This document shows positions 3-816 of a stretch of 20,205 nt of DNA, piece after piece (the stretch's first letter is position 1; the number at the start of each line of letters is the position of its first letter). This DNA comes from a virus. The stretch spans positions 1 to 20,205 of IMG/VR virus record IMGVR_UViG_3300032223_001446. One strand, given 5' to 3'. The position numbers and the translations under genes are program-made. Under the pieces are notes generated by a model that was not told the origin of the DNA, did not search any database, and saw only the letters and a list, made by a program, of their open reading frames with translations.

Positions 3-78
3 TGGTGGAGCCACAGGGATTCGAACCCTGACCTGACGGATTAAAAGTCCGCTGTCTTAACCGTTTGACTATAGCTCC
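3..78 (-). tRNA. tRNA-Lys (anticodon UUU)
   Basis: The minus strand folds as a complete cloverleaf. The acceptor stem is GGAGCTA with TGGCTCC, the D stem is GTC/GAC, the anticodon arm is GCGGA-CTTTTAA-TCCGT (anticodon TTT) and the T arm is CAGGG-TTCGAAT-CCCTG. The discriminator A and the CCA end are encoded. It is the most downstream RNA of the tRNA/structured-RNA region transcribed from the promoter at 788-816. Confidence 0.97.
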
Positions 79-136
79 TTCGTTTTAATAATACACTTGT
101 CACTGTCCATAATGGACTCTCCTTAAAATAAAAAAA

Positions 137-200
137 GTGAAGGTTCCTATAAAGCCCATCGTCACCTACAACCATTGGACATATTGCTATGTCATCTGAT
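137..200 (-). ncRNA. structured RNA repeat X, copy 1
   Basis: A 42-nt block (137-178) is identical to 485-526. In both copies it is flanked by a 5-bp hairpin of different sequence and then the same ATCTGAT (plus-strand reading). Here the hairpin is GACAT-6 nt-ATGTC (178-193); in copy 2 it is GGTAG-4 nt-CTACC. Keeping the helix while changing its bases points to a functional RNA. On the minus strand the element ends in TTCAC followed by seven T (130-136), so it may also act as a weak terminator before tRNA-Lys. Its function is unknown. Confidence 0.6.
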
Positions 201-275
201 TGGCACACTGTACCAGAATCGAACTGGTCTTCCTGCCGTGAAAGGGCAGTGTCCTAACCGATAGACGAACGGTGC
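201..275 (-). tRNA. tRNA-Glu (anticodon UUC)
   Basis: Cloverleaf on the minus strand: acceptor GCACCGT with ACAGTGT (one G-U and one C-A mismatch), anticodon arm CTGCC-CTTTCAC-GGCAG (anticodon TTC), T arm ACCAG-TTCGATT-CTGGT, encoded GCCA end. It lies between the two copies of a repeated structured element (137-200 and 485-547). The C-A mismatch in the acceptor stem is slightly unusual but does not prevent the fold. Confidence 0.95.
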
Positions 276-480
276 AAAAAACTTGGTAGGTCGGACCATC
301 ACCCCGACATTTGAGGACTAATACACAGGTCTCTTACGCATTTAAGCCGCCTGGTTTCTCTACCATATAAACGAATGCCTAACTATTCACACTGGATGAA
401 CTCATTAGATTGTCTCGGTATGCAAGTCAACCACAATTAACTTAACAGTTTACAGAACTCAAACATACCGTCTATTTCAA
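276..480 (-). ncRNA. non-coding, probably structured RNA segment
   Basis: No plausible gene lies here. Several long-range helices are visible: TGGTAG 284-289 with CTACCA 360-365 encloses hairpin GTCGG/CCGAC (290-294/304-308) and a stacked stem CAGG/CCTG (326-329/350-353) with CTTA/TAAG inside it (333-336/343-346). A separate helix pairs CGGTATG 416-422 with CATACCG 464-470. The first group makes a three-way junction. The strand is inferred from the promoter at 788-816 and from the neighbouring tRNAs. Part of it resembles a tRNA D-arm, but no cloverleaf closes. Confidence 0.5.
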
Positions 481-484
481 ATTC

Positions 485-547
485 GTGAAGGTTCCTATAA
501 AGCCCATCGTCACCTACAACCATTGGGTAGTTGTCTACCATCTGATC
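485..547 (-). ncRNA. structured RNA repeat X, copy 2
   Basis: Second copy of the element at 137-200, with the 42-nt core 485-526 identical. The hairpin is GGTAG-TTGT-CTACC at 526-539. On the minus strand the loop region ACAAC could pair with GTTGT inside the core, a possible pseudoknot seen only in this copy. It directly follows (minus-strand sense) the pseudoknot repeat Y at 553-610. No T-run follows this copy. Confidence 0.6.
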
Positions 548-552
548 TAATG

Positions 553-655
553 CTAACAAGGAACTGACTGTTACATGATGCCGAAGTCATTACTGCATCA
601 AACCCTTGCTCAACTCTTTTCAGAGACAGACCGCATTTGTCTGTTTTATCTTAAA
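553..655 (-). ncRNA. pseudoknot RNA repeat Y, copy A
   Basis: One of two tandem copies with a period of 111 nt. Read on the minus strand: outer helix AGCAAGG/CCTTGTT (610-604 with 561-555), inner hairpin GATGC/GCATC (599-595 with 581-577), and loop TGACT (589-585) pairing with downstream AGTCA (569-565), an H-type pseudoknot nested in the outer helix. A separate hairpin ACAGAC/GTCTGT is at 626-644. The outer helix contains a G-U pair only if the minus strand is the RNA; on the plus strand it would be A-C. Confidence 0.65.
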
Positions 656-663
656 TTCGAAAA

Positions 664-765
664 CTAACAAGGAACTGACTGTTACATGGTGCCGAAGTCA
701 TTACCACACCAAACCCTTGCTAAACTCTTCTCAGAGACGGATCGTTTATTTCCGTTTTTTTCTTT
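664..765 (-). ncRNA. pseudoknot RNA repeat Y, copy B
   Basis: Second copy of the pseudoknot element. The helices correspond to copy A: outer 721-715/672-666, inner GGTGT/GCACC at 710-706/692-688, pseudoknot 700-696/680-676. Relative to copy A, one inner pair changes from A-U to G-C and another from C-G to U-G, both allowed on the minus strand. The accompanying hairpin ACGGA/TCCGT (737-755) also differs from copy A in both arms. It would be the first element transcribed from the promoter at 788-816. Confidence 0.65.
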
Positions 766-787
766 CTCAATCAACTCAACAGAATCT

Positions 788-816
788 ATTATAGCCGAAA
801 GGGGTTACTTTGTCAA
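788..816 (-). promoter_or_regulatory. sigma70-type promoter for the structured RNA/tRNA region
   Basis: Minus strand: TTGACA (816-811), 17-nt spacer, TATAAT (793-788), a perfect consensus, preceded by CGC. It points into the non-coding region and the tRNAs and has no protein gene downstream before the window edge, which is the main reason to assign the RNAs to the minus strand. Confidence 0.85.

Follow-up and report, generated by a model that had tools for sequence, protein, structure and literature searches.

The tRNA cluster of phage T4 encodes two small stable RNAs, RNA C (rnaC, species 1) and RNA D (rnaD, species 2), which are annotated at 139 and 119 nt and lie within a few nucleotides of one another and of a tRNA. 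The putL and putR elements of phage HK022, which occupy an early position in the transcript and are not tied to tRNA arrays, bring about antitermination in cis via the zinc-binding domain of the RNA polymerase β′ subunit, and the antitoxin RNA ToxI consists of 36-nt repeats in tandem and is partnered by a toxin. The putRNA, about 70 nt long, folds into two stem-loops and contains non-canonical G-A pairs (PMC9378689); ToxN can be suppressed by a pseudo-ToxI repeat of phage origin, which expands via duplication (PMC3475682). GOLLD and ROOL are likewise non-coding phage RNAs, often found near tRNA islands (PMC12286853); they are single large cage-assembling RNAs, and many GOLLD members exceed 800 nt.

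The window, i.e. the whole stretch of DNA analysed here, is the 20,205-nt virus record IMGVR_UViG_3300032223_001446, and all of its features relevant to this study lie on the minus strand (Table 1). For positions 137-787 the original prediction had proposed one large structured non-coding RNA beside the phage tRNAs, with many long-range helices, a perfect promoter at its 5′ end, internal duplications and no credible gene, perhaps of the GOLLD or ROOL class or of a new one. The interval is instead a series of short RNAs, each folded on its own, among phage tRNA genes; from the promoter onwards the order is A, A, B, C, D, tRNA-Glu, B, tRNA-Lys, and we consider the chances about even that the interval forms the first part of a phage tRNA operon with small structured RNA genes, namely A and B in two copies each and possibly C and D. 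Several parts of the prediction hold nonetheless. The promoter is indeed a full consensus match and probably drives the structured RNA region; the internal duplications are confirmed, one of 102 nt (84% identity, 546-647 vs 657-758) and one of 42 nt (100% identity, 137-178 vs 485-526); and none of the open reading frames matches a PHROG or exceeds the Pfam cut-off, leaving the interval free of credible genes and clear protein homologues. One Pfam match (E=0.0038) was set aside, as it reaches half the cut-off score and falls in an opposite-strand reading frame overlapping A. Structured non-coding RNA does adjoin phage tRNAs here, with one tRNA gene inside the interval and another beyond it, and the covariation among relatives that had been named as a check is found in both A and B. 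Beside the second of these tRNA genes, a tiny reading frame at 69-110 (minus strand) has a good ribosome site (AAGGAG..ATG, MDSDKCIIKTKEL) and ends within tRNA-Lys; the same start (MDSDK) occurs in the same place ahead of the tRNA-Lys of contig L006.

Table 1. Features of the promoter-proximal tRNA region of the window.
Feature	Position	Strand	Basis and remarks
Sigma-70 promoter, TTGACA-17 nt-TATAAT	788..816	-	12/12 consensus; transcript start expected near 781
A copy 1, 94 nt	664..757	-	Covariance model R2, 116 bits
A copy 2, 94 nt	553..646	-	Covariance model R2, 114 bits; within 84% identical 102-nt duplication
B copy 1, 63 nt	486..548	-	Covariance model R1, 78 bits
C segment, ~104 nt, candidate only	369..472	-	CGGUAUG/CAUACCG outer stem
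D segment, ~84 nt, candidate only	283..366	-	UGGUAG/CUACCA outer stem
tRNA-Glu (TTC)	201..275	-	ARAGORN; Rfam 48 bits; inside interval 137-787
B copy 2	138..202	-	Covariance model R1, 68 bits; abuts tRNA-Glu CCA end
tRNA-Lys (TTT)	3..78	-	ARAGORN; Rfam 71 bits; outside interval 137-787

To characterize B, we assembled a set from four IMG/VR pattern scans and BLAST of phage records, which comprises 99 copies in phage sequences, 76 of them distinct. The 5′ half of the element features a box (usually GAGCAAAY) that opens into the stem I hairpin, after which come CAAYGGUUGU and a second hairpin, AnGU-GA-CGAU-GGG..-AUCG-GA-ACnU. At fixed positions of stem I, 153 of 165 possible pairs form across 33 distinct 5′/3′ combinations, as compared to 86 ± 5.6 (maximum 107) when partners are swapped, and pairing drops to 27-45% in slid registers. 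Both sides change at all five pairs, and the covariation score of 0.442-0.472, against 0.134-0.144 for shuffled alignments, is reached by none of 500 shuffles, although sequence relatedness inflates shuffle tests of this kind on the A and B alignments. The two copies in the window illustrate this variation, as their stems are wholly different and yet both pair (GGUAG/CUACC in copy 1, GACAUA/UAUGUC in copy 2), and this free stem, with 33 distinct complementary versions, is the strongest single piece of support. Two core pairs vary in concert as well: pair 34-61 occurs as AU, CG, UA or GC and is formed in 67/76 copies (shuffled 43.7 ± 3.3, maximum 56), and pair 35-60 occurs as AU, GC or UA and is formed in 74/76 (shuffled 55.0 ± 2.2, maximum 62). 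A tandem G·A step is predicted from invariant positions and the MFE fold, and a closing stem P0 (GCAA/UUGU-type), the weakest part of the model, is proposed from purine-only changes together with the MFE fold. Two earlier drafts of the core, one with a longer helix containing a U·U mismatch and one with an RNAalifold hairpin implying a pseudoknot, gave way to the combination of P0 and stem 2, which suits the later variants and the MFE fold. In ten contigs (L093, L094, L096, L099, L101, L106, L111, L118, L122 and L124) stem I is replaced by a branched two-hairpin insertion.

The placement of B is tightly linked to tRNA genes. Across its loci, 772 tRNAs lie on the strand of B and 1 on the opposite strand; a tRNA is found at ≤400 nt from 68 of the 76 distinct copies, and B stands near a tRNA in 54/59 cases, vs 21 expected at random within the same loci. 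The box begins ≤4 nt after a CCA in 52/76 copies, and where a tRNA closely follows, it starts 6-12 nt past the core (29 nt in one case). The flanking tRNAs are of many different identities, and B is thus not tied to a particular one. Arrays that hold B reach 40 tRNAs, with 241 tRNAs upstream of B and 342 downstream over all loci (few arrays being complete), and both B and A are usually present in single copy per record, even in records of 100-364 kb. Two cultured phages carry B, Xanthomonas phage XAJ2 and Pseudomonas phage HU1, which are unrelated and whose searched stretches have only B in common (48 nt at 85%). The XAJ2 locus has no tRNA, and there B is followed directly by a terminator, as expected of a small-RNA gene, and then by an endolysin gene; in HU1, B is preceded by two tRNAs, and a terminator lies about 166 nt downstream. 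Elsewhere in the set, tandem copies occur at L077 6380-6551, where a 106-nt unit is duplicated, and at L071 8666-8781, where the second core is devoid of stem I; a long hairpin without annotation, perhaps one more structured RNA, follows B in L061 (~836-930), and at L050 5887-5963 and just downstream, in a 35-tRNA array, B is followed after 33 nt by a tRNA with a CTA anticodon (amber reading; Pyl according to ARAGORN).

Outside phages, B was found neither in plasmids nor in E. coli, and an exact-pattern scan of 84,980 genomes for bacterial copies returned a single hit (L081), which lacks the box, receives no score under model R1 and is attributed to chance. B therefore looks phage-specific within the limits of these searches, which relied on BLAST or on a pattern requiring A at position 34, such that divergent prophage copies could escape. 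A Mycobacterium prophage hit (H36) was likewise rejected as a chance match, as it is located inside a coding gene, and six further pattern hits devoid of the GGUUG part, with 0, 0, 0, 1, 0 and 0 surrounding tRNAs, are also ascribed to chance and serve as a negative control.

Element A was identified at 34 places by exact pattern and at 36 by covariance model R2. Its fold features two 5′ hairpins, followed by CAAGG/CCUUG around UGGUGU/GCACCA, and a pseudoknot between UGACU and AGUCA, invariant across the set, is possible. The alignment is 97.6% paired, its covariation score is 0.235 as compared to 0.129 ± 0.010 after shuffling, and changes on both sides of a pair (A:U to G:C and the like) are seen in three stems, the two 5′ hairpins and UGAUGC/GCAUCA. 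A is located 5′ of tRNA-Glu in many contigs and adjoins tRNA-Met or tRNA-His in others. It often lies about 25 nt downstream of a near-perfect promoter: a promoter matching at least 11 of 12 consensus positions lies within 110 nt upstream of 8 of 25 A loci, vs 4.5% of tRNA genes. The promoter together with a leader (TCTGTTGAGTTGAT or close to it) precedes A in the window (788-816) as well as in L009, L011, L013, L035 and L036, which suggests that promoter, leader and A form a conserved module. Among searched records, A is present without B in 16 (some of these being fragments) and B without A in 15, and this separate occurrence in other phages indicates that the two are independent elements.

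From sequence comparisons, the view that A and B are RNA families under structural selection, matching no catalogued family, is well supported. The C and D segments are candidates only, neither being supported as an RNA element: C recurs at 97% identity in L006 and 92% in L021, in both cases likewise in tRNA arrays, with no matches beyond these two contigs and the window, and D was seen in this window only.

Folding energies and a search of known families bear on whether the interval could still be read as one large GOLLD- or ROOL-type RNA. The 506-nt region from 781 to 276 (minus strand) folds at -123.1 kcal/mol, no better than its dinucleotide shuffles (-124.8 ± 5.1 kcal/mol, z +0.34), and the many long-range helices of the original prediction are consequently unsupported; the supported helices are local, within units of 63-94 nt. 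Individually, the two copies of A fold better than shuffled sequence (z -2.4 and -2.2), whereas those of B gain no such support (z -0.4 and -1.5) and neither C nor D beats it; the case for A and B comes from the comparison of relatives. The Rfam 15 covariance models, which include both GOLLD and ROOL, returned nothing except tRNA in 80-860 with lax filters and E≤10, and no ribozyme, riboswitch or type III antitoxin RNA model matched in the interval. As the same search detects phage tmRNAs in sister contigs, it works on such material, and its silence argues that the interval contains neither GOLLD nor ROOL nor a catalogued ribozyme, riboswitch or antitoxin RNA. The tmRNA genes themselves are permuted (L017 7341-7736, L029 13913-14302 and L028 11252-11504), and two of the three also match the betaproteobacterial tmRNA model, a hint of betaproteobacterial hosts. 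With the context alone (a phage, tRNA genes and structured non-coding DNA) speaking for a giant RNA, and with Rfam silent, the region folding like shuffled sequence and its units of 63 and 94 nt found apart in other phage records, we regard this reading as very improbable. The suggestion of a new class accordingly stands for A and B, as two families with no Rfam match, but not for one giant RNA.

Other functions can be envisaged for the individual elements. A ribozyme or aptamer would likewise show a small core that is conserved and peripheral stems that vary, and B or A might cleave itself as a ribozyme or act as a processing signal by which the tRNAs of a polycistronic transcript are separated, in agreement with the compact invariant core and a position exactly between tRNAs. 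Such a role sits poorly, however, with elements that usually occur once per genome although arrays can be so long, with the tRNA-less B locus of XAJ2 and with the silence of the Rfam ribozyme models, and we consider it quite unlikely. It is just as doubtful that A or B is a decoy or antitoxin-like RNA directed against a host defence nuclease. Like ToxI and phage pseudo-ToxI, they are small phage RNAs with a possible pseudoknot and a copy number that can rise, as illustrated by tandem A and B copies in the window, L006, L021, L071 and L077; unlike ToxI, they are usually single and match no known antitoxin RNA in Rfam, and the phages that have one core in common infect different hosts, a setting in which diversification would be expected of decoys.

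A further possibility, which we judge unlikely, is that A and/or B are RNA-only antiterminators similar to HK022 put, where the nascent element would bind the host RNA polymerase and help it to stay processive across terminators and across tRNA arrays, which are untranslated and Rho-sensitive. B is alike in architecture, with two adjacent stem-loops in about 63 nt and an apparently invariant tandem G·A step, and the promoter-proximal A matches the early-transcript position of putL and putR; this position of A and the terminators past B, above all the one just behind it in XAJ2, would also fit a cis-acting antiterminator. On the other hand, B is mostly placed among tRNAs and seems able to stand anywhere in the array, model R1 finds nothing in the HK022 early region containing put (L082), and comparison by eye with the putL/putR region reveals no likeness. 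A broader proposal, speculative and rather improbable in our view, sees in B a phage RNA that is widespread, is shared horizontally and on its own engages a central host machine, RNA polymerase being the most plausible one, for full transcription of untranslated tRNA operons; B would then be a second class of RNA-only antitermination, and A a leader element of similar function.

We favour, at roughly even odds, a model where A and B are phage small-RNA genes that share a transcript with the tRNAs; maturation of the latter would set the two RNAs free to act in trans on a host component that is conserved. The promoter at 816-788 would give rise to one transcript across the tRNA operon that likely includes A and B. 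RNase P cleavage at the 5′ end of the next tRNA, along with RNase E and exonucleases acting in the A/U-rich linkers, may then release both as compact stable RNAs by the normal tRNA-maturation enzymes, and the freed RNAs would present an invariant folded surface in trans to this component, for which a protein or RNP is the likeliest candidate. Selection at the RNA level, location on the tRNA strand, tight packing and a copy number that is usually one all favour such gene-like behaviour. By analogy, the best reading is that A and B are RNAs of the RNA C/RNA D kind, likewise tightly packed on the tRNA strand, and new families by sequence and structure: they are shorter than their T4 counterparts, and models R1 and R2 find no match in the T4 tRNA region with rnaC and rnaD (L084). 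We found no earlier description of either in the open-access literature, and one published elsewhere could have been missed.

The reason for the long tRNA arrays of phages, and the role of the non-tRNA RNAs within them, is a question that dates from the T4 stable RNAs. The present analysis adds two compact RNA families that sequence comparison strongly supports; B, one of the two, occurs in nearly a hundred phage contigs. As a 63-nt RNA in culturable phages is open to deletion, swapping and assay, its function is directly testable.
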